The notes under the pieces were generated by a model. The model was given only the letters and a program-made list of their open reading frames with translations, ran no database searches and had not been told where the DNA came from. Positions 16,845-40,187 of a DNA stretch of 64,000 bases are shown here, piece by piece. The position numbers and the translations under genes were made by a program. The stretch comes from Beverwykella pulmonaria (Eukaryota > Ascomycota > Dothideomycetes > Pleosporales > Melanommataceae), in contig BCHH01000007.1 of NCBI GenBank assembly GCA_001599595.1, positions 2,436,719 through 2,500,718 on the forward strand. Direction: 5' to 3'. Position 1 is the stretch's first letter. Each line of letters begins with the position of its first letter.

Positions 16845-17665
16845 TAAGGTGTGATGACGAGCACGGTCTTTACTATCGTGGATGCTGAAGGCAAATGAAA
16901 GGATAAGTAGGCTCTATTTCAAGTACACTAGGATAGAGCGAGAAGAGGTTCTCAGGGAGAACGATCCTATATACAGAAGGGTATGGTCCGGGCGCAGCCC
17001 GACCGAGCATGTCCTGACAGTGGGACCCCCTGCCACCGTCGTCTCTGACACGTGTTCATGTGATGTGTGGTCGAGCTGGCGAGAAGCACCGTCATATAAG
17101 GAGACTGTAGGCAGGAGATCGAAATGTGGGTATAGAGTGTATTCAAGACGAATCCTTGAGGAGTACTCAGGAGTCGGAAGGTAGCTATATATAGATTGAC
17201 ACGTGACTGAAGATCACGTGGTCTGAAACCTGGCCAAAGGCTGCCTGAGGATGGCCCGGAGGGGAAGGTTGCTTGTGACAGAGCCCCCCTTTCTTAAGGG
17301 TTGTCCTAATCCTCTAATACAGGAAAGATTTAGGGAACCTACTAGACTTCCTTTGTGCCACGCTGGACAAGCGTTATGTGACGGTGCTGCTCGGCAGCTT
17401 GACCACACATCACATGAACACGAGTCAGATGCGGCGGTGGCGCACCTTCAGCTCCACCACGTCGGACCACATGCGCGCGCCACGCCATGCCACACTGTTA
17501 GGACATGCTCGGTCGGGCCGCGCCCGGACCCTTCTGTATATAGGATCGTTCTCCCTGAGAACCTTTTCTCGCTCTATCTTAGTGTACTTGAAATAGGGCC
17601 AACTTATCCCTTCATTTGCCTTGCGCATCCACGATGGTGAAGACCGAGCCCGTCATCACACGTTA
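16845..17665. mobile_element. Foldback element with long inverted arms, about 0.8 kb
   Basis: The two halves are inverted copies: left about 16845-17100, right about 17375-17665. Both ends read TAA(G/C)GTGTGATGACG inward. The inner parts share GTTCATGTGATGTGTGGTC and AGCACCGTCA. Arms differ by substitutions and small indels (for example an extra TATG near 16982). No transposase is encoded. It resembles a MITE or foldback element. Confidence 0.75.
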
Positions 17666-21343: not shown

Positions 21344-23052
21344 CTATGTCCGCTCCCCACGAACCATGATCTTGACCCGAAAGTTCCTCGGCTTAACAAA
21401 CCAATAATTCGTCGTTTCCCATGGCTTCCGAACCAACTCACCATCGAGTACGAAATCAAAGTCCCGAACAAGAACCGGGATCAACTTGGACATTTCGAGA
21501 ATCGATATATGGCGCCCGATGCAGGTTCTCGAACCAAGGCCGAACTTTGCAAAACATTAGACCGCGGTTTCGATACAGGAGAAGGAGAGGAGGGATAAAT
21601 ATCGTACCGGCATCCAATAGCGATCCATGATGGCCAGCTTCTCTTTATCCTCGATAAGCCATCGGTCAGGGTTGAACTTGTTCGCGTCTGTACCAAAGAT
21701 AGAGGTGTTCTGGTGGGAGACCCATGTGTTGACTCCAACAATAGTCTACCAAAATTCAGCCTTGATACCATAGTGTAACACAAAAGCCGGTACTCACCCC
21801 AGCAGGGAAAAATCGACCACACATCGTCACTCCACCTTCAGGCACCACCCTCTCAAGAGGAAGGCCAGTCGCAGGATGCATTCGAAGTGCCTCTTTGATC
21901 ACCGCTTGGAGGTACGGCATATCTTGGCTGTCTTTGAATTTTATCTGCTGCGATATTTTGCCTCTGTTTTGATGCGTGTCGACTTCTCGTCGTAGTGAGT
22001 CGAAAGTTTGAGGGTTCTTGAGGAGGTAGTACAAAACCGCGGAGAGGCTGATTGCGGTTGTATCAGACCCGGCGACCATGTTTGACACGCATCCCATCGC
22101 CACATGATACATAGTGAATCTCTTCGGGTCCTCGGCATTCTTGGAGAAGAACTTAGTGAGGAAGTCCACACTGGCTGAGTGCTCCGAAGCATCTAGGGTA
22201 TCGACAGGAATAGCTTTCGTGGCCGACCTATGTTCTGCGATTCTATCTTGGGTGAACTTCATCACATATGTCCTTCCTGTACCAGACTTTCCAGCGAGCC
22301 AGTTCCTGATGGGCATAAGGTAAGGGTGCATCCAGGAGAAAATGCCGACCAGAGTCGCATACCGCAGGTGGACTTCGAGTGCAGCTATGACCCCATTGAT
22401 GTCATCCCCGCGATCCAGGAATCCTAGACGCTTGGAATAAGTGATGAGACCGATGACATCAAATGCGTAGCATTGGAACCAATGCCCCATATCAGCGAAA
22501 ATTCCAGCGGCCGCGATCTCGTGCAGTCGCTGGCTGAATAGGTCTGCACATTCATCGACAAAGGACTCGTAAGTGACGAGAGAGGACATGGAGTAGGCTC
22601 CCTGATATTGCCGCCGATTCTCACTGTGTCGTTTGATGTTCTGATCCGAGAATATCGACCATCGATCTGGATGTGGGTCGCTCCATGTCTTGTACCATGC
22701 TGACTTTGGAAACTTGGCGCCGTGACCATATATGATCTTTTGGGCCTCTGGATCATTGATACTATAGCGGTTTGGGCCATAGCGGACGACGGGTCCTTGT
22801 ATTTGGTCAGAGCTAGACACACGGTTTTCAACATGTTGTCAAAGTTGTATTACCGAACTCGTGATGCAGAGCAATGTTGTCCACTTCAAATTTTCCATTT
22901 CGAACCCGCCGGAAATACCATACATCATTGAAACGAGCAGCCAGGGGTCCGGGCACGTGCTTTAAAGGCGAGAAGATTCCTCGTAAAAAGGGAAGGAAGA
23001 TGCGCGCGAGGAGAAGTGCGCTCGCTGCTCCTAGCAGTATGGCGGTATGCAT
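21344..23052 (-). CDS. Cytochrome P450 monooxygenase (pisatin-demethylase-like clade by appearance)
   Basis: Four exons read from 23052: 23052-22854, 22795-21798, 21745-21608 and 21544-21344, with introns of 58, 52 and 63 nt; the spliced frame is 511 aa with no leftover bases. Features in order: an N-terminal membrane anchor, the HVPGPLAARF proline hinge, GPVVRYGPN restored by intron 1, I-helix AGSDTTA, K-helix ExxR in KEALRM, a PERF-type region NPDRW, and the heme loop FGLGSRTCIG whose cysteine ligates iron. It is a microsomal class II P450 needing NADPH-P450 reductase, likely hydroxylating or demethylating the cluster's substrate. Its promoter carries the cluster motif (one mismatch) about 170 nt upstream. 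Confidence 0.92.
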
Positions 23053-24079
23053 GCTTAGGATTCTGTAAAACTTTTAAGACTTCTGTGGGACTGTTCTTGC
23101 AGGTGCTAATGTGTTCGTAGAGTTATCTTGGCCAACGGTCATTATATCACTATAGGTGCATCTAAAGAGCTGGAGATGCGGAATTCCATTGCGGGGAAAT
23201 CGGAGCTCAAAGCGGGTGCGGGGTCGGGAAGTGGGGTTTGCCCGTTGTTGCTCCGATCATGGCTTTTGTCCCCTTCTTCTTCCGTTGGGAATATTTTCAG
23301 AATTTATAATAGAGCCTCATTTGAGATTGCCTCAAGCACTTCATAGAAGTTACAGAGAACCTCTCCACCACCAAATGTCAGAGATGCAATTCTTTGAAAG
23401 CCCAGAAAACAGACTAAACTCGGATTGTATCGGAAGCTCTGATGCCATATTAACATCCCCAAGTGTTTTCCGAGATTATTTCGACTCTTCACCGATACAA
23501 CTCTATAGTCACGGATTTGATCTTGATCCTCCACAACAACAATCAAATATTCCCTGTGACATTGTCTTAGCAAGCCAGAGTCCTCGGTCTATTCATCATA
23601 TTAGTGATAGAGCTCTAAGCCAATTGATGTCATTGATGTTGGTGTCTGTTTCGAGGTAATAAGCTTGACATATATACTTACAGCCCATGCAATAATTCGT
23701 TTCCGATCCGTCTACGGACTTTGTTCCCTATAAATTACTTCTGCTGTCCATAAAGAGTAAAAAAGGTTAATTGCTATTTAAACATACATGATCCTAGCAA
23801 ATACAATAGGGTAGCGTAGACTCCACTACCCATTTTCTCAATTTAACGTAAGCTGGCAATGTAAACGAATTCATGCACAGTCATGCCCCATAGTCTCATT
23901 TCGTACCCAAACCCTTCTGTCTGGCATAGTGATGACAGTATATCGAAATACTCCTTCGACAAACGCTCCAAATTGCGTTGGATGGTATTGACGTTATCAT
24001 GCCTTTCACCGCTTCACTTAGCGGAGTTGAAACAGTGGTCATCATTCGGCATTAACAACGAGCAACCCAATTTTTGTTC
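23053..24079. other. Intergenic between P450 promoter and FAH 3' end
   Basis: The first about 250 nt is the P450 promoter region. The rest (about 23340-24079) contains short open frames without recognisable domains; I see no supported gene. Confidence 0.4.
23223..23236 (-). promoter_or_regulatory. Cluster motif, P450 promoter
   Basis: Read on the minus strand the site is CCCCACTTCCCGAC, one mismatch to CCCCACATNCCGA. It lies about 171 nt upstream of the P450 start codon. Confidence 0.6.
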
Positions 24080-25351
24080 CTACGAAGTTCCTGAGTAGCG
24101 AGCGGGAAGTATCGTCCCAACACATTCTCCAAACCCCACACCATCATTACTATTCCCAACGACTCCAGTACACCTCACAACATCCCCATCGTTCAGGTAC
24201 CGTAACTCAGACCCATCATCCAATTTCCAAGGCTTCTTCCCATTCATAGTAAGCTCAAGCAAACACCCGTGTTCTTCATCCTTGTCACCTGACACCGTTC
24301 CACTAGCAACGAGATCCCCAGTCCGAATCCCGCAGCCACCAACAGTGTGATGAGCAAGCATGTGTCTAAACGTCCAGTACATAGTCTCAAACCCGACTTT
24401 GCAAGTTGTACTAGATGTGCCGTCTCTCACAAGCTCGACTTTCAAATCGATCTTGTAGTTTATGCTCTCTGGGTCATCCAAGAAATCGGCAACCGGTGAC
24501 AGGCGCGCCGGTGCGGGAGTCATGAAAGGCTGCAGGGCTTCCAGTGTAATGATCCAGGGTGATATCGATGTAGCAAAGTTCTTTCCGTTGAAAGGGCCAA
24601 GAGGATTCATTTCGAGACCTTGGATATCCCGCGCACTCCAGTCATTGACAAGGACGAAGCCAAATATATGCTGGTCCGCGTCCTTTGCCTTCAAATTGGT
24701 TTCAGGCGCAATTGGCCGTCCAATCACTGCCCCGACTTCTAGTTCATAATCTAGAGCTTTGCAAGGGCCGAAAATGATAGGTTTCGAGGGATCGCTGTAA
24801 TCCGTGAATTGCCCATGTGGGCGAGTCACGGGACTTCCAGAGGTAGTGATAGAGGAGCACCGACCTGCGTAGCCAACAGGGTATTTGTGAAAAGCTGGTG
24901 GAAATGATCGAATACCGAAGATTGCTTCTGCGGCGTTCTGAACATGGTTGGCGGAGGCGGAGAAGTCAGTGAAATCGCCAATTTGGACTGGCAAATGGAG
25001 AGTGATATCTTCAATGGATTCCGTGCTATCGTAGAGTTTCTTTTCTTTATACGCATTTTGGATGAAGCTTCGAACTTGTGTATGTGTATCTTTGGGCAAA
25101 GCCGCAAAAGCGTTGAGCGTGTTTTGTCGGAAGACGACTAAAAGTGGTTCTGAAAGGCCAATAAAGATATCGTTTTCTGCAAGTTCGGCTAGGAATATGA
25201 CAGTATTGCCAATTCGAGTTACGCATTGTGGCAGGGGATGGCGAGCGGAGCTGGCGATTCCATATGGTATGTTGTTAATACCAAAATGAGAAGCAAAAGA
25301 AGCGGACATAGTGACTGGGGGGATTTGAGACATTTGGAAAGTAGCAACCAA
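24080..25351 (-). CDS. Fumarylacetoacetase-family C-C hydrolase
   Basis: Single exon, 423 aa, the length of true fumarylacetoacetases with their N-terminal SH3-like domain. Catalytic and metal residues are in place: DFTDFSASANHV (Asp and the general-base His), the ALDYELEVGAVIG pair of acidic ligands, NDWSARDIQ, and GKNFATSISPW (Lys). The family cleaves carbon-carbon bonds of 2,4-diketo acids; in tyrosine catabolism it yields fumarate and acetoacetate. Placement in a ten-gene oxidative cluster rather than with homogentisate genes suggests a paralogue acting on another ring-cleavage product (inference). A later Met at 25309 is an alternative start. It shares a 240-nt divergent promoter containing the cluster motif with the cupin gene. 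Confidence 0.88.
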   Translation of the reverse strand: MVATFQMSQIPPVTMSASFASHFGINNIPYGIASSARHPLPQCVTRIGNTVIFLAELAENDIFIGLSEPLLVVFRQNTLNAFAALPKDTHTQVRSFIQNAYKEKKLYDSTESIEDITLHLPVQIGDFTDFSASANHVQNAAEAIFGIRSFPPAFHKYPVGYAGRCSSITTSGSPVTRPHGQFTDYSDPSKPIIFGPCKALDYELEVGAVIGRPIAPETNLKAKDADQHIFGFVLVNDWSARDIQGLEMNPLGPFNGKNFATSISPWIITLEALQPFMTPAPARLSPVADFLDDPESINYKIDLKVELVRDGTSSTTCKVGFETMYWTFRHMLAHHTVGGCGIRTGDLVASGTVSGDKDEEHGCLLELTMNGKKPWKLDDGSELRYLNDGDVVRCTGVVGNSNDGVGFGECVGTILPARYSGTS

Positions 25352-25427
25352 AATTGTTCACTGTTACACATATTTTGGATATCCGGCTCCGAGATGTTAC
25401 GTGCCTCGGGCGAATCGGCGCGTTCCT

Positions 25428-25441
25428 CCCCACATCGGAAT
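25428..25441 (+). promoter_or_regulatory. Cluster motif variant, FAH/cupin divergent promoter
   Basis: CCCCACAT is followed directly by CGGAATCTCCG, i.e. the CCCCACAT half plus an inverted CGG/CCG pair instead of NCCGA. About 77 nt from the FAH start and 150 nt from the cupin start. Confidence 0.55.
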
Positions 25442-25591
25442 CTCCGATTACCGCCTACTCCACTTCGGGACTGGGGAAAAATGCTATTGACTTCTTTTTG
25501 AGTAGTTTAGAGGCAGCGGCACACATTTTTATCGAACGTGTATACAGAATCAAGTCTCCCACTACGCCTTTCACATACCCTATCACCCATC

Positions 25592-26143
25592 ATGACTACA
25601 ACAAACGAACTACCAACGCTGAAGCGTTTCATCACAACCCATGATTCCAGCGGCCTTGCAATCTTTTCAAAGGCATTACCAGAAGAGAACGCATCAAAGA
25701 CGCTTCCAAATGGCGATGCAGCCTTCGCACTCGGATACACGACAAAGGGCTTTCCAGTGGATCTCAACCAAGAACAAGACGTTCGAATCTATAAATCCAA
25801 CCTCGAAACGCCCCCTGGACTTGTCCTATCTGGGGGAACCGTCCTTCGCTTCGTGGACATGTGTCCAGATCATGTTTCGCCGATGCATCGCACCGTATCT
25901 CTAGATTATGGAGTGGTGATTGAGGGAGACATTGAGCTCGTCTTGGACTCAGGAGAGACACGCCGGATGAAGAAGGGCGATGTGGCAATTCAGCGCGGAA
26001 CGATGCATCAGTGGAGGAATAATAGCAAGACGGAATGGGCGAGAATGATGTTTGTGTTGCAGGATTCCAAGCCCATTGAAGTGAACGGGAGAGTGTTGGA
26101 GGAGGACTATGGGAACATGGTAGGGGTTCCTAAATCTACATAG
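25592..26143 (+). CDS. Small single-domain cupin protein
   Basis: Single exon, 183 aa from the ATG at 25592 (MTTTNEL); the earlier in-frame ATG at 25538 is in the promoter. One cupin barrel: motif 1 around HVSPMHRTVSLDYGVVIEG, motif 2 GDVAIQRGTMHQWRN, with the motif-2 His and Asn kept. Motif 1 has Asp-Tyr where many dioxygenases have Glu, so the metal site is non-classical. Such small RmlC-like proteins accompany many fungal catabolic and secondary-metabolite clusters, and their reaction is mostly undefined (isomerase, cyclase or decarboxylase roles are known for some). It is co-regulated with the divergent FAH gene by position and motif. Confidence 0.82.
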   Translation: MTTTNELPTLKRFITTHDSSGLAIFSKALPEENASKTLPNGDAAFALGYTTKGFPVDLNQEQDVRIYKSNLETPPGLVLSGGTVLRFVDMCPDHVSPMHRTVSLDYGVVIEGDIELVLDSGETRRMKKGDVAIQRGTMHQWRNNSKTEWARMMFVLQDSKPIEVNGRVLEEDYGNMVGVPKST

Positions 26144-26595
26144 CAAATTCTACAGACCAAACAGCTAGTTTCGAGACAGCCAGGGGATCGGACAGTGAAT
26201 GATTAACGCGTATGTTTAACTTCTTCTAAAAAAATATCATGCTCTAGGTTCGCACTTTGAATTCAGGACTGAGATGACGAAGTCATAAAGTATATCCTTT
26301 CTGGACGGGTATAACCCCAGGACTTGAGAATTCGGACGAAGATTTACCCACAATTGCTAGGTGATAAGTCTTCTAGCATCAGCCGAGGCAGATTTGTACA
26401 TGCCCGAAGTTCTTTGCTCAGAGGTAACGCGCGTCGCCACGGAGACTATCTTTGAGCAACCAACCCCCACATCCCGAAGGCCCCACCAACCACCTAGTCG
26501 TAACATCCAGGGACCATACACGTGCTCACGCGCTAACACGTAAATACCACTTGATATGTTCAATATTCACAGCTATTTTGGAAAACACCACAAAC
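26144..26595. other. Promoter region of the CocE-type hydrolase
   Basis: Contains the cluster motif at 26465-26478. No gene seen. Confidence 0.5.
26465..26478 (+). promoter_or_regulatory. Cluster motif, CocE-type hydrolase promoter
   Basis: CCCCACATCCCGAA, an exact match, ending 118 nt before the start codon at 26596. Confidence 0.7.
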
Positions 26596-28439
26596 ATGCC
26601 CAACACCCTTCAAGACCTCCACACGGTGGACTTGACGTCCTTTCCGTACATCTTCGAACAAAACGCTTCTGTCTCTCTCAGAACCAGTGAAGGAACAGTG
26701 CGCTGCAACGTCTACCGCCCGAAACCGGCCAACGAGGAAGAAAAATTTCCGGTTCTGGTGACATACGGACCATATGGCAAAGACATTCACTATAAAGAGT
26801 TTGTTAGGTCTGGCGTTTGAATCTTTCTACTGCGCTAACATGATCGCATAGCTTCCATCCTAAGTCCTTCGCAGAAGTCAATCCCGAGCACCACTCCGCA
26901 CACTCCGCATGGGAAACCCCAGATCCAGGCTTCTGGACCACACATGGCTATGCAGTAGTCCGAGCTGACGAGCGTGGGCTTGGACAGTCACCAGGATTCC
27001 TCGACACCATGTCACGCGGCACATCCGAGGCCTTCTTCGACGTGGTCGAGTGGGCGGCCGAACAGCTATGGTCGTCTGGAAAGGTTGGCTTGCTTGGCAT
27101 TAGCTACTACGCGGGGTCGCAATGGCGCGTGGCAGCTCGCAGGCCAAAGGGATTGGCATGTATTGTACCCTGGGAGGGGATGTCGGATTACTACCGCGAT
27201 CGTTGCCGTCACGGCGGAATTCTATCAAACAAGTTCATCAGTTTTTGGTGGAATCGGCAGGTCATCACGAATCAGTATGGTAAGCCAGGGCGCCAGGCAG
27301 CGAATTGGGGGCCGGATACTATTGAAGGTGACCTCCTTGATGAAGAGCGCGCAAAGAATCGACAAGATCAGACAATCGATACTGGAGCCAACCGATTTAG
27401 AGATGAGCAATATTATGCAAGCAAGGAATACGACATGTCCGACATTGCCGTGCCGCTGCTGTCAGTTGGAAACTGGGGCGGCATCTTGTTGCATCTGAGA
27501 GGAAATATCGAAGGGTTCGTCCACGCGGGATCAGAGTTCAAGTACCTTCGCATGATTACCGGGCGCCACGATCTGCCCTTCTACTATTCTGAAGAGGTGG
27601 AACTGCAACGAAGTTTTCTGGATGCGTTTCTCAAAGACGAAGACCGGGTCGGATGGTCGGTTAAGGGCAAACTACCCGCCGTAGACTTGGTCCTGAGAAA
27701 GGGCGATGTTGGCTTCAATGATGCAAAAGCGGAGAAAGTTTACGAGAGGCGCACAGAGAATGAATGGCCAATTGCAAGAACGATGTATACCAAGTACTAT
27801 CTTACGCCCTCACAAACGCTCGAGAAATCCAAGCCATTGATAGAAAGACCCCAAAAGCTGAGCTACAAGGCTCTTGGAACGCTGGAAAAGCCGGAGATTT
27901 TGCAGTTCACGACTCTGGAATTTGACCAAGAGACCGAAATCACAGGCCATATTGTCGCGCATCTCAACGTTTCGCTCTCACCACACGCTGCAGGACCCAC
28001 TCCATCCGACATCGACCTCTTTCTTACACTCCGATATATTTCCCCGGCTGGCAAAGAAGTGTTCTACACTGGTACAGCCGGTGACCCTGTGCCCCTGACA
28101 AAGGGTTGGCTTCGCGTTTCGTTCCGGAAGACGAGCCACAATCACCCGAAGAATAGGCCGTATTTGCCATGGAGGGACTACTTCAGCACAGATGTTCAGC
28201 CGGTCATCCCCGGAGATGTGTATGCCGTGGACGTGGAGGTTTGGCCTACTAATGTTGTTGTTGAAAAGGGCGGGAAGTTGGTGTTTGAAATTAGCAGTGG
28301 TGATACGCAGGGAAGTGGCATCTTCCAACATGATGATCCGAAGGATAGGAGTGAGGAGAAGTTTGCAGGGATGAATCATATCCATTTTGGTCCGATGTCG
28401 TCGAATTGGGTCACGCTTCCTGTGATTCCGCCTAAATAA
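26596..28439 (+). CDS. CocE/NonD-type serine hydrolase (X-Pro dipeptidyl-peptidase S15 fold)
   Basis: Two exons, 26596-26807 and 26852-28439, with a 44-nt intron (GCTAAC branch); 599 aa. The N-terminal part has the alpha/beta-hydrolase fold: FPVLVTYGPYGKD, RADERGLGQSPG, and the nucleophile elbow GISYYAGSQW with Ser as catalytic residue. A likely catalytic His is in ITGRHDLPFYY. The C-terminal about 230 residues form the PepX_C jelly-roll. Relatives include cocaine esterase, acyl-ester and amide hydrolases; no signal peptide is seen. In this cluster it may remove an acyl or ester group from the substrate (inference). Tail-to-tail with the DODA gene. Confidence 0.9.
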
Positions 28440-28819
28440 GTAAATTATCCACAGGTTAGCGAGAATTAGACTCAAGTAGAATGAAATTTGAAGATATTGA
28501 CTAGACTGAAGGTTGAGTTTATGTTTCCTTGTTAGGACTAATGATGATGAAACTTTAAGCCTGGCTCTGAAGAAAAATAGTACAATGGCAGCCGATCGCA
28601 AAGGAAGCTATTAGCATATAAAAGCAGAAATTTGAAGAGACATTTCCATACTATGGAGGAAAAAAGGACCAACTGGGCACAACGTTGTCGTTGTGTATCT
28701 GCGAGGATGATCCGTTTATGAAGTCTATTTAGATGCGACCATCTTCGCCACGACTCGGAAACACTTATAAAAACGAGATGGATGCAAGATGATGCGTACA
28801 GTTACTCCCACAAATACTA
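28440..28819. other. Intergenic between convergent genes
   Basis: 3' flanks of the CocE-type hydrolase and of the dioxygenase. No gene or motif seen. Confidence 0.5.
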
Positions 28820-29680
28820 CTATTTCCATGACCCAATCGTGAACTGACTGTTACACATGTTGACCAGTTCCCAATCTTCAGCCCCAAGGACACAGTTCTC
28901 CCCTTTGCCATCCTCCAATGCATCAGCGACTCCTGCGACAAAGCATGCAGCCATGAAATGGTCGTCTGTTCCATGCGCATCCCTATACAATGGATGCTTC
29001 ATCAATCTCGTCACCGCTCCAGTCAGCCTTCCACTACCTGTTCCCGCATTCCTCACAAAGACATCCTCCACACTCTGGCGAAATTCTAGCATAGCATAAT
29101 CGGGTGGAGTAGGCTGTGCAAAGTTGTCCGAGTAGCGTAGCATCTGCAGCCAGTGATTCCGGTAGAGGTTGTGCACTGCGCCACCAGTTCCAATCAAAAG
29201 GTACCTCTCCTTCCGCAGTGGAGCCAGTGTTGCGCCGACGCGGGAGTGCAAGTGTGGGTCGAAGCGCCCATTCATACTGATCAGGGTGGTTGGCGGACAC
29301 TTGTCAGGAAACATGCGTATGAGGATGAGATATGTGTCATGGATCCAGTCAAAGGTCTCGTTTGGCCGGGCATCGAAGTTCGCGGCTCGCAAGAGCGAGA
29401 TGCACCGTTTTCCGGTCGCGAGATCTGGATTGAGGGCGTAGTCGGCGTACTTTGAGGGATGCACGTATGCGACGGGTGATTTGGAGGGGTTCGGGTTCAT
29501 GGCCACATCGATGCGATTTGTACCTCGTGCGTCCCAATGAGCACCCATCATGACGATGCCCTTGACACCGTGGGCAAGGGCGGCGTCGCCGCAAGCTTTC
29601 CAGTAGTCGGCCGACCGAGATTTCTCACCCAGCATCATGGTTGAGCCATGAGAGAAGAAGTGGGCGGGCGCAAGAGACAT
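28820..29680 (-). CDS. LigB/DODA-type extradiol ring-cleavage dioxygenase
   Basis: Single exon, 286 aa from MSLAPAHFFSHG at 29680; the frame stays open upstream to 29872 but that part is not family-like. Motifs of the class III extradiol (4,5-DOPA dioxygenase) family: FFSHGST with a metal His near residue 10, MMGAHWD (His), HDTYLILIRMFP, IGTGGAVHN (His) and the C-terminal GTDDHFMAACFVAG. The enzymes open catechol-type rings next to the hydroxyl pair using a divalent metal and O2. It shares a 427-nt divergent promoter with the transcription factor. Together with the flavin monooxygenase and P450 it points to aromatic ring hydroxylation followed by extradiol cleavage. Confidence 0.88.
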   Translation of the reverse strand: MSLAPAHFFSHGSTMMLGEKSRSADYWKACGDAALAHGVKGIVMMGAHWDARGTNRIDVAMNPNPSKSPVAYVHPSKYADYALNPDLATGKRCISLLRAANFDARPNETFDWIHDTYLILIRMFPDKCPPTTLISMNGRFDPHLHSRVGATLAPLRKERYLLIGTGGAVHNLYRNHWLQMLRYSDNFAQPTPPDYAMLEFRQSVEDVFVRNAGTGSGRLTGAVTRLMKHPLYRDAHGTDDHFMAACFVAGVADALEDGKGENCVLGAEDWELVNMCNSQFTIGSWK

Positions 29681-30107
29681 GGGGAAAACCGGGCTTTTGA
29701 AGCGAAATTTTATACTGCAGGATTGGGAACGGGTCGAGATGAGAAGGGACGTGAAACAGTGGTATGGTCTTGCGTGAAACAATTCCCAAGGACAAGTGAA
29801 GGATATATCACGTGGGGTAGAGCTCGGGCAGTTTTCACAGATAATGGAACTCCTGCTCCCAGATGCAGGCAAGTCATATCATTGCCAAAGAGGAAACTCT
29901 GAAAGGGCAAAACAGTGGTCATGTGACCAGAGAGCGTAGCTCGGGATGTGGGGCAATGCAAACGTCCCGAAGGCTAGCTTCTCCTCCACCTCACACCATC
30001 ATATCGACACCTCGCTTCCCCAGATTCTGCAGCTCCCCAGTTACCCCATACTCTGCGCGCCTGTGCTTCCCCAGACGCCCTCCACCTCGGGCTTTCCAGA
30101 CGACAGA
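29681..30107. other. Divergent promoter, DODA and transcription factor
   Basis: 427 nt between two start codons, carrying the cluster motif at 29940-29953 and a TATATCACGTG at about 29805-29815. No gene seen. Confidence 0.55.
29940..29953 (-). promoter_or_regulatory. Cluster motif, DODA/transcription-factor divergent promoter
   Basis: Minus strand CCCCACATCCCGAG, exact to CCCCACATNCCGA. About 155 nt before the regulator's ATG and 260 nt before the dioxygenase ATG, so the regulator may control itself. Confidence 0.7.
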
Positions 30108-32781
30108 ATGACAATGGACAGCGTGACTGAGCCCATAGCCAGCACCCTAATGTCCGAGGATACTCCACGGCACTTCCAATGTAGCACGTGTAAGCGCGCA
30201 TTCACGCGCGCCGACCATCTCACACGTCATGTGCGCGCACGCATGTTCACCCCTCCATCCGAGACACCACGTGACTAACGGTGATCAGACACGCGCCAGA
30301 AACCATATGTCTGCCCAACCTGCTCTAAGGGCTTCGCCAGAGTGTAGGTTCAACGTGAAGATAGCCTCTATAGTTACTCGACTGAATTTACCACACAGCG
30401 ACCTGCTTAAGCGACACGCGGCGGCCCACACCGCAGACGAAGACGGGCCTAACAAGCGCCAAAGACGAACGACGGTCCGCGCCAGTCGCGTGATACAGGC
30501 ATGTGAGTCCTGTGCTCAGAATCATCTTCGCTGCGAGCACGAGAAGCCGTGTAGTAGATGTCGCAGCAAAAATATCCAGTGTCAAGTCCCTTCAGCTGTC
30601 GATTTTTCCTTCGAGCACATGTCTTCAGAGCCGCTAGATTTCGAACATCATGAGGCCCAGCCTCAGTCCACCGGAGAAGATACTACCATTGATGAAGCTC
30701 TGGGAGATGATAGTGCAGGAGAACTTGCAACGAGCACAGATACAACCAGCGCAGGTGCCATGCCGCCCTCTTTCTTCCAAGATAACCAGATCCCTTCCCA
30801 CGATGCTCCTTCTACAGATGTGGGTGAAGGCTTTTTGCCCGACTATCTTCGCAATATGCCGCCTTTTGAATCCTGCCTTTCAGGAATTGCTACGCCTCGA
30901 GGTATCATGGACTTTAGCTTCAATTGGGACATTGACTTGAATGACATGGACATGGGATTTCTAGGCCAGTACAACCATCATGCCCCCTTTGAAGTTGAGA
31001 CTCCGTCTAGCGATGCTCATGGCACACTACAACAACTTCCATCTGAGCCTTCAGGCGACGGCGTTTCCGTACGACACGAAGCCTTCAAGAAAAGTATTTG
31101 GCGATACTTGCCTCAAAGCAATCGTGATTTTGGTGCCGCGGAGCAGCCAAATCTGGCCTTCGAGGATAGTGAACAGGGCAACAGCCGCCATCGATCACAT
31201 CTCACAACGCGCAGGGCCATACACGAGCGGCTTGATCGAATGACGCGAGACAGGCTTTTGGCTCTTGTGCTTGGGACGTGTAGCCCAGCGAATGTTGGCC
31301 GTATCGCAAGTGCATTTCCCACCATCGAACTTCTCGACGGCCTCATTCAGTACTTCTTGACCTCGCCATCACTTGATGCTAAAGCTTGGCTCCATCTTCC
31401 GACCTTCTCTCCATCTAAGCTCCGACCAGAACTCTTGGCGAGCATCATAGCTGCAGGTGCTGTGTCTACGCCTGATATACCACTTCGAAAACTTGGTTTT
31501 GCTCTCCACGAAGCGTCTCGGGCCAGTATAGCGCAAGCATTTGAAGCGGACAACAGCGCGATTCGGGATCTCCAACATGTGCAAACCCTCATGTTGAGCC
31601 TCGAAATTGGCATGTGGAGTGGAATGAGCCGCAAGATGGAAATCGCCGAAAGTTTTCTTCAACCATTAGTTACCATGCTGCGGCGGGGAGGCCGATTCCG
31701 GCGCTCTACGTGGAAAAATATCGTCCCTGAGCTCGCTGACGATGGACCCGTTCTGGAGAATAAATGGAACCAGTGGATTCTTCAAGAGCTGTACCTTCGC
31801 CTAGTCTTTAAAGCCTTCGAGCACGACAGACAGTCCTCAATGGCCTTGCTTAAACCACCACTAATCTCCTACGCGGAACTGCAATTACCACTGCCGCACT
31901 CGGACTCCCTTTGGAATGCAGCCTCAGCACAGTCGTGGAAGCTGGCGTATCTGTCTCGTCCTCAAAATGGTGCACGTCGACCATCACCCACGGATTGCTT
32001 GCTCGACCTGGATTCGCTCAGCTGCCACGAGTCAGCGAGTCTAGCTTATCTTTACATGGTGTGGGGGATGATTTGGGAGTACAGACAAATGGAATCTGTG
32101 GCCAGCAGGTTGCTCAGTTCCCAAACAAACAATTTGATTCTGTCTTCGCGCCACCAGGAGCTGTCCAAGTATTTCGAATACTTCCGTGTAACCAGCTCTG
32201 CGGCGTCAAGCCCGGGTCTCACGGTTCTTGTGGAGCTTATGCTCATGTATCTGAACACTCCGTTGGATGAAATACAGCTCTTTGCCGGCATCGAGGGTCA
32301 AGAGGAAGCACGACGTGTGTATCCGTCCTTGCAGCGTTGGGTCACGACTCCGTCAGCCAGACAGGCTCTTTGTCATGCTGGGCAGGTTTTGCGAGCCGCA
32401 AGAACATTGCCCAAGGGCCTCGTTCGCAACTTCAACGCTATTGCAGTGTATCATGCCGGGCTAGTGTTTTGGGGTTATGGATTTCTCAAGCGAGCTTTGG
32501 TCGACTCAGATCTAGGAACTAACAACAATTATGGCAAACCCGTATGTCTGGATTCTGACGCCGACATTGAATCTCGAAGATTCATTTCGCTAGATCGCGG
32601 CACGCCTGCCCTTAATGGACAAGAGTCTCAAGAGTCTCCCATATTGATCTGGGACATGGATGGAATCATGAACAATTTGATACGCTTGTTGAAGGCAAAT
32701 CACGACGTAATAGAAGGTCCTTGTCCCCCTCTTGTGGAAAACCTTGTACAATTAATGGAGGGGCTCAGAAGCACAACTTGA
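30108..32781 (+). CDS. Cluster transcription factor: two C2H2 fingers, Zn2Cys6 cluster, fungal TF domain
   Basis: Three exons, 30108-30240, 30289-30343 and 30399-32781; 856 aa in a clean spliced frame. Intron 1 appears to be GC-AG (GCATGT donor, GACTAACG branch, CAG), because only this join gives the linker HTRQKPYVC between fingers. Finger 1 is FQCSTCKRAFTRADHLTRH, finger 2 is YVCPTCSKGFARVDLLKRH (intron 2 lies within it). A complete Zn2Cys6 motif follows: CESCAQNHLRC, EHEKPC, SRC, RSKNIQC. The rest is an acidic linker and a fungal-specific transcription-factor middle homology region. Position in the centre of the cluster and the motif in its own promoter suggest the pathway-specific, autoregulated activator. 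Confidence 0.88.
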
Positions 32782-33164
32782 CAATAAAATGCGTCTCCAA
32801 AATACTTTCAGCAACCGAAGTGCTCACTGCACGGTTCAAGTTAAACAACTCACCCTGCCCTTTCCATCTGCTAGGTGCAAGATTTGGGAGTATCGGCGAT
32901 GTTATGGGAAAAGGTAAACTATACACAGAAGCGGGGTCCAAATGTTGCACTCCCAGCCATGAAAGAGTATTTTGGGGGGTAACATATTCAACCCCACATT
33001 CCGACCCCACAGGGTCCCCCAGTTAATTGAGCAGGGACCCGCTACATCCCCATTCTTTTCTATTAGGAGAGGCCATAACAGAGCCGTGCGGCACTCCTGA
33101 TACTCACACCACCTTTGAACCATCCTGAAGTCGTCTCCATAGTAGGGATCAACGCACATCTCCA
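32782..33164. other. Promoter region of the MFS transporter
   Basis: Contains the cluster motif at 32993-33006; no gene seen. Confidence 0.5.
32993..33006 (+). promoter_or_regulatory. Cluster motif, MFS transporter promoter
   Basis: CCCCACATTCCGAC, exact to CCCCACATNCCGA, ending 159 nt before the start codon. Confidence 0.7.
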
Positions 33165-34899
33165 ATGGCCGGTTACAAACACGCATTCACCCTGTCAAAG
33201 GCAGAGGTCGCCAATGCGACCCCACCTGGTACAGTCACGCTCATCGGTATGTTTACAGCCATAGTAGATTATCAGCCCTCCTCTCCATGGTCATCACTAA
33301 CTGAATGCTCATCATCAGAACATGTAGAATGGACAGCGTCTCAGCAGATCCACGATGAGCTCCGTTTAGTGCCCGAACCATCGGCGGATCCAGCGGACCC
33401 CTTGAACTTCGCCTGGTGGAGGAAAGTGAGCATTCTAGCTTGCATGTCGCTGTCACCATTTATCGTCAACTTTACCAGCTCTTCGATTTCAAGTGCGCTG
33501 CCAGTCTATGCATCCACGCCCGTCTTTGGATTTCCACCCACACCGTTTGCAGAGTTAACTCGTCTCATTGCGGTGAATATTCTCATGCTAGGTGCATCGA
33601 ATCTGTGGTGGGTTCCGTTGGCAAATACCTTTGGCCGGCGCCCCATTATGTTGCTGAGTCTTCTACTGTTGGTGTTTTCGTCCATGTGGGCCGGACTTGC
33701 AACGAGTTTCCACAGCCTGCTAGCAGCAAGAATCTTTATGGGTATCGGCGGTGGACCGGCAGATGCGGTTGCGCCCGACGTCGTTGGAGAAATATTTTTC
33801 GTGCATCAACGAGGCAGAGCGATGGTAAACCAAATTCAAGAACTCTTTGTATCTAGGTCTAAGATCTAACCTGTCCTAGGCCATTTATACCGTCTTTCTC
33901 GCATCTGGTTCTGTCACCGGTTCTATCTCGGGTGGCTACATTGTGGCACATGGGGGCCTTCGTTGGTTGCACTGGACTAACGTGATATTGGCTGCTTCGA
34001 CCTTTGTTTTGTGCGTCTTCTTTCAGCCCGAGACATTATACGACCGTCCCACCTCTGCGCACAGTATCAGTCTAACGGAAGACTCCGAGAAGCACACCAC
34101 GAAGACTACGGAAGAAATCCGAACAGCAGAAACAGTCTCGTCTACATACCGCCCATACACATTCGCTCAATCTTTTAAGATCGCTACCTTTAGACCAGGA
34201 GTTGCGCATAAATTTGTGGGGCCATTCCTAGCCCTTCGCCTTCCTGGTGTGTGGCTGGTCTCGTTCTGGTACGCAGGCCTAGTTGGAGCCACGGTGGCCT
34301 TGAGCACCCTCGCTCCTCAGCTTGTCTCCGTGCCACCTTATCTATGGGCCAAAGATGCTGGGCTTATCAATGTGGGTGGTTTGGTTGGAACCTTTTTGGG
34401 ATGCGTGTATGCGTACTTCATCGCAGACTGGACAACAAAACGCATGGCGAAGAAAGACTTGCACGGATTCAGCGAACCAGAGTCTAGGCTCCTGACCGCC
34501 ATGCCAAGTCTGCTTATCGCAACGGCTGGAATCTTGACCTTTGGCTTTGTGGCCCAGAATCCATCTCCTACCGGCTGGGTCGGTTTACAATTCGGCATCG
34601 GCATGGTTGCCTTCGGGCTCATGCAGGCACCTTCTGTTGGATTCAACTACCTAATTGAGTCGTATCCATCTGTCTCAGGAGACTGCTTTGTCGCTGTGAC
34701 TTCTGCTAGGGCTATTGTTGCTTTTGCGTACACCTTTTTCGTGGGAGAGTGGGCTACAAAGAAAGGACCGGCTGAGCCATTTGGCATCTTTGGCATGCTC
34801 ATGGGATTGTTTGGTCTCCTTACAGTGCCTATCTGGCTTTGGGGAAAGAGACTGAGGATTGCGACTGCGAAGTGGGTGCCTGAAGGCACTGCACTTTGA
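33165..34899 (+). CDS. MFS transporter of the cluster
   Basis: Three exons, 33165-33246, 33319-33824 and 33880-34899; introns of 72 and 55 nt; 535 aa. The 72-nt intron has no stop and is a multiple of three, so it could be retained. A soluble N-terminus is followed by about twelve hydrophobic helices, with the MFS loop motif NTFGRRPIMLL between helices 2 and 3, FMGIGGGPADAVAPDVVGE in the helix 4-5 region, and a long charged central loop (about residues 245-280). The pattern is that of fungal drug/anion-type carriers. It probably imports the cluster's substrate or exports an intermediate (inference). Confidence 0.88.
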
Positions 34900-35518
34900 G
34901 CGATCCCATGGGTTTGCACAAATGATGTACTATTCTGTCGTTCCCTGGTATTGTGGACCGGGCTAAGCAGATATTTATTATGTAATATGGTCCCTGAAGT
35001 AATGGATACTATGCTCTATGCACCCCGACATCTGCAAGCGCCCTATGTCTCTACTCTAATTGAATTGTTGAGCGAGAATGTGATAGATATGAGTAAAATA
35101 ACCTCGACCGATACGAAAGCACAGAAGAAGCCAGTTTCATGCCTGCAATCAGCCGACGAGCCCACGGAACGGTGACAATACGGTAAGCTTTGAACAAGAG
35201 AATCAAGCAATCAGAACCAAGTACTTCCACGAACTCTCCGACGAGGGTCACTGAAGAAATGAAGGTCAGAGGAGGGTTCGGCATGTGGGGGACTTGCTTC
35301 TGCGAACCAGTCGAAACGATCGGTAAGCGAGCCTTACCGGATAATATGCCTCTCGCACCTCGGTTCAAACGGGCCCCAACCAAAGGCATGAGGTGGTCCT
35401 GGAATGGTGATTGAGATGTCTCTGCCTATTTATCCTCATTCGTTTGTTAGAACACCCTTGTATCAACCCCACTATTCCCATTCCCATTGCTTATACTGAC
35501 TTCTTCACAAAGAAAAAG
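34900..35518. other. Promoter region of the monooxygenase fusion gene
   Basis: 619 nt with the cluster motif at 35277-35290. Short open frames only. Confidence 0.5.
35277..35290 (-). promoter_or_regulatory. Cluster motif, FAD-monooxygenase promoter
   Basis: Minus strand CCCCACATGCCGAA, exact to CCCCACATNCCGA; 229 nt upstream of the ATG at 35519. Confidence 0.7.
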
Positions 35519-37712
35519 ATGGACTTCACAACGACCAATGGAGAAAATGGTGTCCATAACACCTTCCACAATGATACCCCCAAACCTCTGAAAATAACCA
35601 TCGTGGGAGCCGGCATCGGTGGTCTCTCCGCAGCCATCTTCCTCCGCCAACAAGGCCACCACGTCACACTTCTCGAGCAATCGCGCTTCGCCAACGAGCT
35701 CGGTGCCGCCGTGCATCTCGCTCCGAATGCAAATGGCCTCCTCAAACGGATGGGGCTTTTCGCCGAAGAGACCGGCGCGAATGAAGCACTAATGATGACT
35801 CAGTACATGCCCGATGGCAAAGAAATGTTCAGTGTGCCATTGCAGAAGGTTTGCGCCATCTGGCAGCATAAATGGTTGCTGGCGCATCGTGTGCACATCC
35901 ATGCTGAGTTGAAAAGGAGGGCTACGATGTTGGAAGGAGGCGGAAAGCCGGCGGAATTGCGGACGTCGAGCAGAGTCGTGGATATGGACACGCAAGGGCG
36001 CGTCACGCTGGCTTCTGGTGAAATGATTGTAGCGGATGTGGTCGTCGGTGCGGATGGTGTGCATTCAAAAACGCGAGAGAAGCTGCCTGGTGCAGAGAAC
36101 ATCAAGACATTCGGCGCTGGGAAGAGCGCGTTCCGCTTCGTGATTCCGAGATCGAAAGCCCTTGCGGACCCGGAGACGAAACCTTTGGTCGAGAAAGACG
36201 GCCATTTGCAGATGTTCTTCGCCCGCGATCGCCGCGTTGTCATTTACCCGACTTCGAACAACGAGCTGCTCAACTTTGTCTGCATCCATCCAACCACCGA
36301 ATCTGAAACCCAGGCTCAGGCTTCTGGCGAATGGAATCAGCAAGGTCACCTTGGAAGGATGCTGGAAGTGTACAAAGATTTCGCACCAGAGATTGTCAAG
36401 CTATTGAGCATGGCAGACGAGGAGACGCTGAAAGTTTGGGAATTGCTGGATATGGAGAAGTTGCCGACGTGGACGGACGAAAAATTAGTGTGTATTGGTG
36501 ATGCGGCGCATCCGTTCACTCCTCGTACGTAATATTGCTTTTATGTCTGGAAGTCGCGCTGACCGTTTGATAGACCAAGGGCAAGGTGCTGGACAAGCTA
36601 TTGAAGATGCCGCCTCACTTGCCGCTGTGCTACCTCTCGGAACACCTATAGAAGAGATACCTAAGCGCCTCAAGCTCTATGAAAAGTGCCGCTACGAACG
36701 CGCCTCAACCATCCAGGAGTTTTCCCGACTTGCTGGGAAGGATCTCGGAGATGGCCCGCCACCCGATGCGAATAAGTTCACCGCCTACAACTTCGGCCAC
36801 GATGAATGGGATTACTCCACCCAGAAACTACGCGAATATTTAAAGGCAAAAAAGCCGCACATTTGGCAGCGCATGCCCCTTTCATTTGGCCCCATGCCCG
36901 GCCCGCGACAGGATGTACATGGGAATCCTTATGACGCACGTCAGTCTACCTTCACCACGGCATCGATCAAGTTTAAGACTTCCCGTACGTTGCTTCAAAA
37001 TCTTTTGCCTACATCCTCATTTAAATTCTCTTCTCCGGCCACAAATGCCTACGCAACGTTCAGTGTCACCACACTTGGCAATATGGAATGGCTAGGTGGA
37101 AAAGGGTACTCACACTTCGGACTCTACATTCACGACGTGGAGTACACTAGCGAGAGTGGCGATACAATCAGGGGTACCTATCTCCCCATCCTATTCGAGA
37201 ATCTCGCCGAGCCAATTGTAAGTGGGCGGGAAGAACTGGGGATGCCGAAGCTTTGGTGCGAGTTAGACATTAAAAGCGGAGCAGACGCAAATCCCGAGTG
37301 GAAGATGACTGCAGGATGGCTGGGCGAACAGTTCTGCCACATGAATATCTCAACACTCGAGGAGGTCACCAAACAACTGAGCACAAGCCCACCCGATCCA
37401 CAAGACCAAGGGCTTCTATGGTATAAATATGTTCCGAAGTCTGGCGCGCTGGCAAAAGACGGACATAGACAAGCAGATGCCGAGTACACTGTCTTCCTGC
37501 CGCACGCCGAAGAGGCAAAGGTAGAAAGAACGGTGGAGAAGGCGTGGAAGGGTACAGGTCAGATTTCGTTCGACGCTCTCGACGTGAAGAGACTACCTAC
37601 ATTGCATCATATTGTGGAGAGGTTGGTAGAAATACCTGTGTATGGGGTTGTGGAAGCGAAAGTTGTCATGGGAAAGGGAGTAAGCGATGTTTTCTCGGCG
37701 CGTCAATTGTAA
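35519..37712 (+). CDS. FAD monooxygenase fused to acetoacetate-decarboxylase-like domain
   Basis: Two exons, 35519-36524 and 36574-37712 (49-nt GTACGT...ATAG intron); 714 aa. Residues about 20-420 are a salicylate-hydroxylase-like group A flavoprotein: GAGIGGLSAAIFL for FAD, a DG motif in VGADGVHSKTR, and GDAAHPFTPHQGQGAGQ assembled across the intron. From about residue 480 to the end the sequence matches acetoacetate decarboxylase-like proteins, with REELGMPKLW placing a lysine where the Schiff-base lysine of ADC sits. The fusion suggests one polypeptide hydroxylates an aromatic acid and processes a keto-acid product, though the two domains could act on unrelated steps. No signal peptide. 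Confidence 0.87.
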
Positions 37713-37926
37713 GTATAGTTAGATGTCGGAAGGCGTTCAATTCTGTAGGCACACAGATGCGGAACACATAATGAGACTTCCTTGCCGCAATTAATGACGC
37801 ACGCAAATTCGCAAAGCGGTTCCAGGAGTAAATAATATTCTAGCAAAATTATATGTTGAGAGCGAGAGAACAAAAACTTCTATTTTCAGCTACATGTACA
37901 AATGAGATAAATAACTTCCGTCATAG

Positions 37927-38348
37927 CTACCACTCTCCGCCAATCTTGTATTGCACATTCCACACTTTACCCAACGTACTATGCCAAACCTTGGAAGCCG
38001 TCTATAAGTCAAGTCAGCACCCACTTTTCAGGCCAGTATATCCACACCATCCCCATTATTTCTACCTACCGCCTCGATGAACACGCCAGTGAACATTACC
38101 CCCACAAAAGCTCGCTCAATTCCATTCTGATAAACCCTCCGCTGGCTCTGGTCGAGCTGAGTATTTACAGGTCTGTACGCCGGAACGCGACGGTGGTTTG
38201 TTGGCCAGTTGGGAGGGTCATGAGTGGAAGGTGATGGATGCGCACTTAGTGATATGTCGAGCGGCTCATTCGAGTGGTGTAGATTGTAGTCTGCTAGCGT
38301 GGCCCGGAGACTGTATGTTTGTGTGTTGGCCGCCGTGGTTACGGACAT
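37927..38348 (-). CDS. Small uncharacterised cluster protein, 117 aa
   Basis: Two exons read from 38348: 38348-38070 and 38001-37927, with a 68-nt GTAGGT...TATAG intron that joins FIEA to TASKVWHS without a frame change. No signal peptide and no recognised domain. Composition is rich in Asn, His and Pro in the first half. The C-terminal half (FVGVMFTGVFIEA, then STLGKVWNVQYKIGGEW) holds one short hydrophobic stretch. It is divergent from the ALDH-like gene, with the cluster motif between them, so it is probably a regulon member. Function unknown. Confidence 0.65.
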
Positions 38349-38512
38349 CTTGAGAGAGAGGGAAGTTGGGGCGGAAAGAGTGAGATACGTATCAACACAT
38401 TAGGTGCATAGAAGGTGTTGTCGATGCAACGGTAGTTGTGAAATTCCAATTCTCCCTCCGGGACTACCCTGGTCCCCAGGCAGCTTGGCACAATAGCATA
38501 GTCTTTGCGGGG

Positions 38513-38526
38513 TTCGGGATGTGGGG
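38513..38526 (-). promoter_or_regulatory. Cluster motif, divergent promoter of small protein and ALDH-like gene
   Basis: Minus strand CCCCACATCCCGAA, exact to CCCCACATNCCGA; 129 nt from the ALDH-like ATG and 165 nt from the small protein's ATG, inside a 306-nt shared promoter. Confidence 0.7.
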
Positions 38527-38654: not shown

Positions 38655-40187
38655 ATGACTTCGTCGAGTACCTCCCCAATTTCCGCCCTCCAGGCCACCG
38701 CCAACACTCGCCAATGTCATAACGTCTTCTTCAGACAGCAACAACTCAAATCACTGCATGACATCTTGCGCGCCAAATCTTCGGACATCATTTCTGCCCT
38801 CAAGAAAGACACGAATGTCTCGGATGTCGAAGCCACCACCGAATTCGCGCTGGCGCTGTCTATTATCAAAGATCATTACAGCACAATCGATGAGTCAAGG
38901 GAGCGGGAAAATGACCATCGAATTTCGAATGGAAAGAACGCAAGAGATCGCCGAGTGCCCTGGGGAGTGGTGTATATCGAACCGGACCTTGGACATACGC
39001 CGTTCTTCTCTATCGTGGTGGCGCTAGGTGCAGCAGTGGCAGCGGGGAACTGTATCGCACTGAAGGTAACATCTCCAGACGCACATTTCGGTGAGGCGGA
39101 AGTTAACATGTCCGAAAACAACCAGCTAGAGAACAGTTTGCGAGTTCTGCCCTCTTTACTCCGAACTCTACTGCCACAAGCATTGAATCCCGACATCCTC
39201 GCCGTCGTTACTACCAACCCGACTCCAGAGTCTCTTGAATCGTGCATGACAGTGCTTCAAGCAACACTTGCATCAGATCCCACGTTTACCCAACTCTCTT
39301 CATCCTGTAGCTATGTTATTGGTATCGTAGACCGCACTGCCGATCTAGCCGTCGCCGCCGAACATCTTGTGAAGGCCCGGTTTGCATTGGGCGGAACGTC
39401 ACCGTATGCTCCAGATCTGGTCCTCGTAAATGAGTATGCGAAGAAAGAGTTCACTGAATTGGTGCTGCAGCATTCAATCCACTTTCTAGCCGAAACTACT
39501 GCGGCGGCAGACAGGAAGAAAAGGAATGACCAGGCGTCCACAAACTTAGTGGAAGCGGACAAGAATTGGAAGACGCGCATAATTACCCAAGGAGATGCTG
39601 GCGCAGTCGTAGAACTAGTCAATCAATCACGCAAACCAAAATCATTCCCCGCAAAGCAAGCCTGCCCATTATTCGCTATCTCCGCAATAACATCCCTTGA
39701 CCATGCCATCGACATCATCTCGAGCGCATCGGCCACCTCGCCTCTTCTTGCAGCCTATCATTTCGCGGCTCCATCGCATGCGAATTATCTCAGCCGCTTC
39801 GTGAATTCTGAGGCTACTTTTGTCAATTACGTTCCATGGAGACTTCTCCTTGGTCCTGCGGCGCCAGCGTTTCGTCCGTTCGATCTGGGGAGGAGATATA
39901 CTGCTGAGCAGTTTCTACGACCAATGCCAGCATTCGTATCCTCGGGGGGCCATTGGGAAGGCGGAAGCAAGACTCTTGAATCTGATAGGGCGGCTTCAGC
40001 ACTGCTAAGAGAGGCCGCAGAGGAGATCAAAGAAAAGAAGAGACAGGAATGGATGTCGTATGGATTCTTCGAGCAAGGTATCATGATCGGGGTGGGTTTC
40101 TATGGTATTCCGCTTCTTGCTTGTGTTAGTGCGAGTCTATTCTACGGTGTGCGAACAAGTGTACACTATTTTTCTTTGTTTTGGTAG
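38655..40187 (+). CDS. Aldehyde-dehydrogenase-fold protein without the catalytic residues
   Basis: Single exon, 510 aa. The fold is class 3 ALDH-like: VPWGVVYIEP, ALGAAVAAGNCIALK in the nucleotide-binding part, then DRTADLAVAAEHLVKARFA. Where ALDHs have the cysteine motif NAGQTC before APD, this protein reads LGGTSPYAPD, and the ELGGK segment with the general-base Glu is replaced by SCSYVIGIV. It therefore lacks both classical catalytic residues. A hydrophobic C-terminal helix (VGFYGIPLLACVSASLFYGV) suggests membrane anchoring, as in fatty-aldehyde dehydrogenases. This looks like a divergent fungal subfamily that may be a pseudoenzyme or use other chemistry. Last gene of the motif-bearing cluster. 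Confidence 0.83.
   Translation: MTSSSTSPISALQATANTRQCHNVFFRQQQLKSLHDILRAKSSDIISALKKDTNVSDVEATTEFALALSIIKDHYSTIDESRERENDHRISNGKNARDRRVPWGVVYIEPDLGHTPFFSIVVALGAAVAAGNCIALKVTSPDAHFGEAEVNMSENNQLENSLRVLPSLLRTLLPQALNPDILAVVTTNPTPESLESCMTVLQATLASDPTFTQLSSSCSYVIGIVDRTADLAVAAEHLVKARFALGGTSPYAPDLVLVNEYAKKEFTELVLQHSIHFLAETTAAADRKKRNDQASTNLVEADKNWKTRIITQGDAGAVVELVNQSRKPKSFPAKQACPLFAISAITSLDHAIDIISSASATSPLLAAYHFAAPSHANYLSRFVNSEATFVNYVPWRLLLGPAAPAFRPFDLGRRYTAEQFLRPMPAFVSSGGHWEGGSKTLESDRAASALLREAAEEIKEKKRQEWMSYGFFEQGIMIGVGFYGIPLLACVSASLFYGVRTSVHYFSLFW

Follow-up and report, generated by a model that had tools for sequence, protein, structure and literature searches.

The ten-gene cluster

We analysed a 64,000-nucleotide stretch of the Beverwykella pulmonaria genome (C7:2436719-2500718, referred to here as the window; the genome comprises 45.6 Mb in 31 contigs), in which ten genes, one of them encoding a regulator with two kinds of predicted DNA-binding domain, have a short motif, CCCCACATNCCGA, or a variant of it in their promoter regions. 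We modelled the ten genes and then searched their products against Pfam, which found families for nine of the ten. At the left end, the minus strand encodes a cytochrome P450 (21344..23052; 511 amino acids in four exons, 21344-21544, 21608-21745, 21798-22795 and 22854-23052; PF00067, E 2.5e-71) and a fumarylacetoacetase-like hydrolase (FAH; 24080..25333; 417 amino acids; PF01557 and PF09298), and the plus strand encodes a cupin protein (25592..26143; 183 amino acids; PF07883) and a CocE/X-Pro peptidase S15-type hydrolase (26596..28439; 596 amino acids in two exons; PF02129 and PF08530). A LigB-type extradiol dioxygenase (28820..29680, minus strand; 286 amino acids; PF02900) is encoded divergently from the cluster regulator (30108..32781, plus strand; 856 amino acids; exons 30108-30240, 30289-30343 and 30399-32781), which has two C2H2 fingers, a Zn2Cys6 domain and a Fungal_trans domain. 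These are followed by genes for a major facilitator superfamily (MFS) transporter (33165..34899, plus strand; 535 amino acids in three exons; PF07690), a fusion of an FAD monooxygenase with an acetoacetate-decarboxylase-like domain (FMO-ADC; 35519..37712, plus strand; 714 amino acids in two exons; PF01494 and PF06314), a small protein that matches no Pfam family (38028..38348, minus strand; 106 amino acids) and an aldehyde-dehydrogenase-like (ALDH-like) protein (38655..40187, plus strand; 510 amino acids; PF00171).

The cluster probably serves the catabolism of an aromatic compound, since this reading fits its content of FMO-ADC, LigB, cupin, FAH-like, S15, P450, ALDH and MFS proteins; the substrate that we infer is possibly an ester-linked aromatic. 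Among the papers listed by a search of the open-licence literature, none showed a match to the pathway of the cluster. Fused gene models suggest that the MFS and ALDH-like neighbours of the regulator are kept in other species, because the regulator is fused with the MFS transporter in seven homologue records (P0069, P0077, P0080, P0090 and P0096-P0098) and with the ALDH-like protein in an eighth (P0105).

One motif in the promoter regions of the cluster

Five exact copies of CCCCACATNCCGA lie in the cluster, all of them intergenic by our gene models, and the distances given here were obtained by subtraction from those models. The site at 26465..26477 (S3, plus strand, CCCCACATCCCGA) is in the promoter of the CocE-type hydrolase gene, 119 nt from the ATG, and that at 29941..29953 (S4, minus strand, CCCCACATCCCGA) is in the divergent LigB/regulator promoter, 261 and 155 nt from the two start codons. 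The site at 32992..33004 (S5, plus strand, CCCCACATTCCGA, with CCCCAC directly after it) lies 161 nt upstream of the MFS gene, that at 35278..35290 (S6, minus strand, CCCCACATGCCGA) lies 229 nt upstream of the FMO-ADC gene, and that at 38514..38526 (S7, minus strand, CCCCACATCCCGA) is in the divergent promoter of the small-protein and ALDH-like genes, at 166 and 129 nt. A one-mismatch site, CCCCACTTCCCGA, at 23224..23236 (S1, minus strand), is 172 nt from the ATG of the P450 gene and is followed by CCCCGC. The seventh site (S2, 25428..25447, plus strand), in the divergent FAH/cupin promoter, is irregular: it consists of CCCCACAT, CGGAATCT and CCGA at a spacer of 8, and its second half is off the standard spacing because CGGAATCTCCGA comes after CCCCACAT. 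At 25428-25450, CCCCACAT leads into the inverted repeat ATCGGA-ATC-TCCGAT, and this is the sole irregular site of the cluster.

All seven promoter-bearing gaps of the ten genes have either a regular site (6 of 7) or the variant at 25428, as an earlier note on this DNA had claimed. That note had located the same five exact copies, all intergenic, and both variants, although two of its starts (32993 and 23223) are off by one and its range of 77-260 nt to the start codons is similar to, but not identical with, the 95-261 nt that we obtain. The motif is absent from both tail-to-tail gaps (28440-28819 and 37713-38027), the first of which has a lone CCCACA half, and neither exact nor one-mismatch sites are associated with the flanking isochorismatase-like and carboxylesterase genes. 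Thus, as expected of a pathway-specific system, one motif recurs in the promoter regions of the cluster and is absent from its neighbours, which supports a cluster-restricted cis element serving all ten genes. Elsewhere in the window, an open frame of 1078 amino acids at 12983-16219 encodes ankyrin repeats.

The same element is recovered when no motif is supplied. We searched the seven promoter regions (that of the P450 gene limited to 1000 nt) for any 6-mer followed by a gap of 0-8 and a 4-mer, and CCCCAC-N3-CCGA was the sole such word in six of the seven regions. By comparison, no word was common to more than three regions across 60 first-order Markov resamplings: the maximum was two regions in 49 runs and three in 11 runs. 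This recovery supports the view, put forward in the earlier note, that the sites outline a putative regulon.

We noticed post hoc that a CCCC[AG]C box lies 0-3 nt past CCGA at four of the six regular sites (S1, S3, S5 and S7), but at only 3 of the 447 other CCGA words in the window. This box may mark a second protomer or the carbon-catabolite repressor CreA.

Occurrence of the motif in the genome

The exact motif is rare, occurring at nine places in the genome, five in the cluster and four outside the window, and thus lacks the genome-wide frequency that the earlier note had named as evidence against its reading. The outside rate predicts ∼0.0013 copies in 15.3 kb, compared to the five seen (Poisson P ∼4e-17), in agreement with the earlier claim of more copies than expected; this rate and the Markov resampling together rule out chance as the source of the cluster motif. 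The one-mismatch form, with which a genome-wide scan had been proposed, is not specific: it occurs at 230 places, versus 186 for the pattern read backwards, and a genome-wide regulon at this level is ruled out. In the window, ten matches are found when up to two mismatches are allowed, the four two-mismatch ones being at 17119, 22666, 31607 and 58952; this count is modestly above that of shuffled sequences (mean 4.34; 3 of 100 shuffles reach 10).

Two of the four exact sites outside the window (L002 and L003) are within open reading frames and a third (L004) is in a stretch without any frame of 90 codons. The fourth (C1:989696-989708; L001 1501-1513, L081) lies on another contig, upstream of a gene for a phenol hydroxylase and ∼375 nt from its first ATG; the two open frames of this gene carry FAD_binding_3 and Phe_hydrox_dim. 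The site is also inside a stop-to-stop frame of 119 codons, the standing of which is doubtful. Given this exact site, the regulon may extend beyond the cluster; the gene is possibly an unlinked member, or the site possibly due to chance.

The cluster regulator and a proposed composite site

The regulator has the arrangement of C2H2 plus Zn2Cys6 dual factors: two adjacent C2H2 fingers and then a single zinc cluster, all N-terminal. Pfam places zf-C2H2 at residues 23-45, zf-H2C2_2 (below the cut-off) at 37-62 and Zn_clus at 96-127, in addition to Fungal_trans, and we read the second finger from the sequence by pattern. The first intron (30241-30288) is GC-AG and falls within the last codon of the first finger, and the coding sequence of the second finger is interrupted by the second intron.

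The recognition helices are RADHLTR (finger 1) and RVDLLKR (finger 2). Of the 233 homologues matched, 120 were analysed; 31 of these 120 had a parseable finger pair (the other 89 were not scorable), and in all 31 the contacts at -1, 2, 3 and 6 are R,D,H,R and R,D,L,R; in two of the 31 (P0037 and P0051) no Zn2Cys6 pattern follows the finger pair. Several homologues are named C6 transcription factor RegA, and close homologues are encoded in Bipolaris, Pyrenophora, Alternaria and Lentithecium. The splicing of the genes and the fungal homologues of the window point to a filamentous ascomycete, and among the named homologues closest to the regulator many are presumably from Pleosporales. The PDB matches include the Saccharomyces cerevisiae factor Adr1 (2adr, E 1.1e-14), whose finger helices, which we take to be RQEHLKR and RRDLLIR, have contacts similar to those of the regulator; Adr1 is not known to have a Zn2Cys6 part. 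In PMC2536678, the Adr1 site is given as TTGGRG-N(6-38)-CYCCAA, with a G-rich half-site, TTGGRG.

These contacts fit one half of the motif, and the second domain fits the other, a correspondence that goes beyond the earlier note. By the zinc-finger recognition code, a finger with R,D,H,R is predicted to read GGG and a finger with R,D,L,R GTG, which together give GTGGGG. Thus, on the strand 5'-TCGG-N-AT-GTGGGG-3', finger 1 would read GGG and finger 2 GTG, and the Zn2Cys6 domain, which is C-terminal to finger 2, would read the CGG located 5' to GTG on that strand. The order of the half-sites mirrors that of the domains, as is expected of C2H2 fingers, which lie antiparallel to the strand rich in G. 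We infer, with a probability of about 0.68, that the regulator of the cluster itself binds the motif as a composite site, a single protein using two kinds of DNA-binding domain. With one site in each promoter-bearing gap, three of them common to divergent pairs, the regulator would co-regulate, presumably by activation, all ten genes, by whose products an aromatic compound, probably ester-linked, would be taken up and its ring cleaved, and the site in its own promoter would provide autoregulation.

Gal4-type or AflR-like Zn2Cys6 regulators are also pathway-specific, encoded in their clusters and directed to sites with a CGG triplet. Unlike their sites, the six regular sites here lack a second CGG/CCG that keeps a constant distance: within 40 nt, any given offset has one in at most one of the six window sites (and in at most one of three sites in the paralogous cluster described below). 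The motif is therefore not a Gal4-type pair, because only the core CCG recurs at a fixed offset, and a classical Zn2Cys6 dimer site is ruled out.

A paralogous cluster with a changed spacer

Apart from itself, the best match of the regulator in the genome is outside the window, on contig C3 (∼1.961-1.964 Mb). The fingers of this paralogue, read from translated frames, are RADHLNR and RRDLLLR; they have the same contacts and are followed by Zn2Cys6, while two C-terminal frames tested had no Pfam match. The second finger is split by an intron, as in the regulator. Around the paralogue, Pfam identifies an FAD monooxygenase, a PhyH protein and a CocE/S15 hydrolase; we assign an MFS-like transporter and a second PhyH-like protein (PhyH2) by reading the sequence, with no Pfam match in the frames tested.

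In 30 kb at C3 there are three pairs of CCCACAT and CCGA with a gap of 0-12, and in all three the gap is 3 (CCCACAT-NTT-CCGA). They are located in the paralogue's own promoter (47 nt to the ATG), in the divergent promoter of the monooxygenase and PhyH genes (281 and 145 nt) and in that of the CocE and PhyH2 genes (196 and 179 nt). Similarly, when no motif is supplied, the best 7+5 words at C3, all within CCCACATNTTCCGAG, are found in three of four promoter regions, a number reached in 0 of 100 resamplings. The paralogue would thus use the same half-sites with a spacer of 3 rather than 1, such that spacing would separate the two regulons; the predicted motifs are TCGGNATGTGGGG for the regulator and TCGGAANATGTGGG for the paralogue.

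Across the genome, CCCACATNCCGA (spacer 1) occurs at 29 places (control 16), five of them in the window cluster, and CCCACATNNNCCGA (spacer 3) at 18 places (control 19), three of them at C3. We read by eye the genome lists for spacers 0-11, taking as a group at least three copies with the same spacer within 15 kb, and found no group beyond the window and C3 clusters. One sequence among the gap-11 matches, CCCACATTCTATATACTCCCGA, has many genome copies and is probably part of a repeat element.

The C3 sites also bear on whether the motif is instead a CreA site, or a CreA site overlapping that of a second activator. The CreA consensus is SYGGRG, and CCCCAC (GTGGGG on the opposite strand) fits it in all six regular window sites, as do the accessory CCCC[AG]C boxes at four of the six; the genome also encodes a protein (L035) that, from its sequence, we take to be CreA-like. 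However, two of the three C3 sites violate SYGGRG yet retain CCCACAT-N3-CCGA, and CreA alone is ruled out by this difference (6/6 in the window versus 1/3 at C3). Six base pairs would suffice for CreA, which leaves the fixed AT-N-CCGA of the extended motif unexplained, and CreA is a global regulator, whereas five of the nine exact copies are in one cluster. We consider it unlikely that the motif is a CreA site, alone or overlapping that of a second activator.

The genome encodes a further dual C2H2 plus Zn2Cys6 regulator (L056, C1:2261221-2264433), with Adr1-like contacts R,E,H,R and R,D,L,R. No local motif group accompanies it in the genome lists for spacers 0-11, and the two nearest one-mismatch sites (C1:2277671 and C1:2284579) are inside long open frames, 12-22 kb off. 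Because L056 lacks a motif group, the composite-site rule, seen in two regulons, is not proven to be general. One more gene (L055) has a finger of the same kind; in the stretches inspected, no Zn2Cys6 was found with the C2H2 matches L034, L035, L037-L039, L041-L049, L051, L054 and L059. A candidate site at L049, CCCCACATGCGG, was dropped, as it is apparently within a finger-coding exon.

Alternatively, a regulator encoded elsewhere would bind the motif and the dual factor in the cluster would have other targets; in favour of this is the exact site beyond the cluster, upstream of the phenol hydroxylase gene. This explanation is highly improbable, as it runs counter to the site in the regulator's own promoter, to the presence of two paralogous dual regulators, each within a motif-bearing cluster, and to the agreement between predicted finger specificity and half-site.

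Discussion

Several observations weigh against a composite site read by the cluster regulator. The Zn2Cys6 loop of the regulator is CAQNHLRC, with a histidine at the position of what we take to be the CGG-contacting lysine of Gal4; the C3 paralogue has a lysine there. The FAH/cupin site lacks a normal second half, L056 has no motif group, and the G-rich half fits CreA. At C3, the MFS promoter has no exact site, and looser 6+4 words reach three of the four regions in 6 of 100 resamplings. Moreover, the linker between finger 2 and Zn2Cys6 is 24 residues in the regulator and 21 in the C3 paralogue; the longer C3 spacer does not come from a longer linker, because the C3 linker is shorter, and a spacer set by linker length is ruled out, as the difference is in the wrong direction.

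The histidine would also be in line with a site that only the fingers, or only the Zn2Cys6 domain, of the regulator read, with a different protein, for instance a partner Zn2Cys6 factor, responsible for the other half. Unequal roles of the two domains have a precedent in Cmr1, for which, according to PMC5415576, melanin production is abolished by loss of the zinc cluster and merely reduced by loss of the C2H2 fingers. Such a division between proteins is unlikely, given that the spacing of the two halves is constant within each cluster (6 of 7 regions in the window cluster and 3 of 4 at C3) and that the half-sites have the order of the domains within a single protein.

Dual C2H2 and zinc cluster factors are already known (PMC5415576, PMC12426039, PMC8637145). 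According to PMC5415576, 140 of the 191 fungal genomes that were analysed have them and dual-specificity factors make up 1-4% of transcription factor repertoires; in Aspergillus nidulans, nine proteins have two C2H2 domains followed by one zinc cluster. The melanin regulators of the Cmr1/Pig1 type likewise combine C2H2 fingers and Zn2Cys6 in one protein (PMC5415576), although the regulator described here is in a catabolic rather than a melanin cluster. PMC8637145 assigns two separate motifs, one to each domain, and a partial search of the open-licence literature found neither a composite site for C2H2 plus Zn2Cys6 factors nor an account of how the domains share a site.

We regard as evenly balanced the broader proposition that fungal C2H2-Zn2Cys6 factors read a continuous composite site, the fingers taking GTGGGG and the Zn2Cys6 domain CGG, with a spacing code set by one polypeptide and no dimer, and that duplicates split their regulons through a spacer of 1 versus 3 bp with unchanged halves. 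The proposal makes a 13-15 bp prediction with built-in controls, a spacer swap and a regulator swap. If true, sequence could serve to find the regulons that other dual factors control, and the case would show how duplicated catabolic clusters may remain under separate control.

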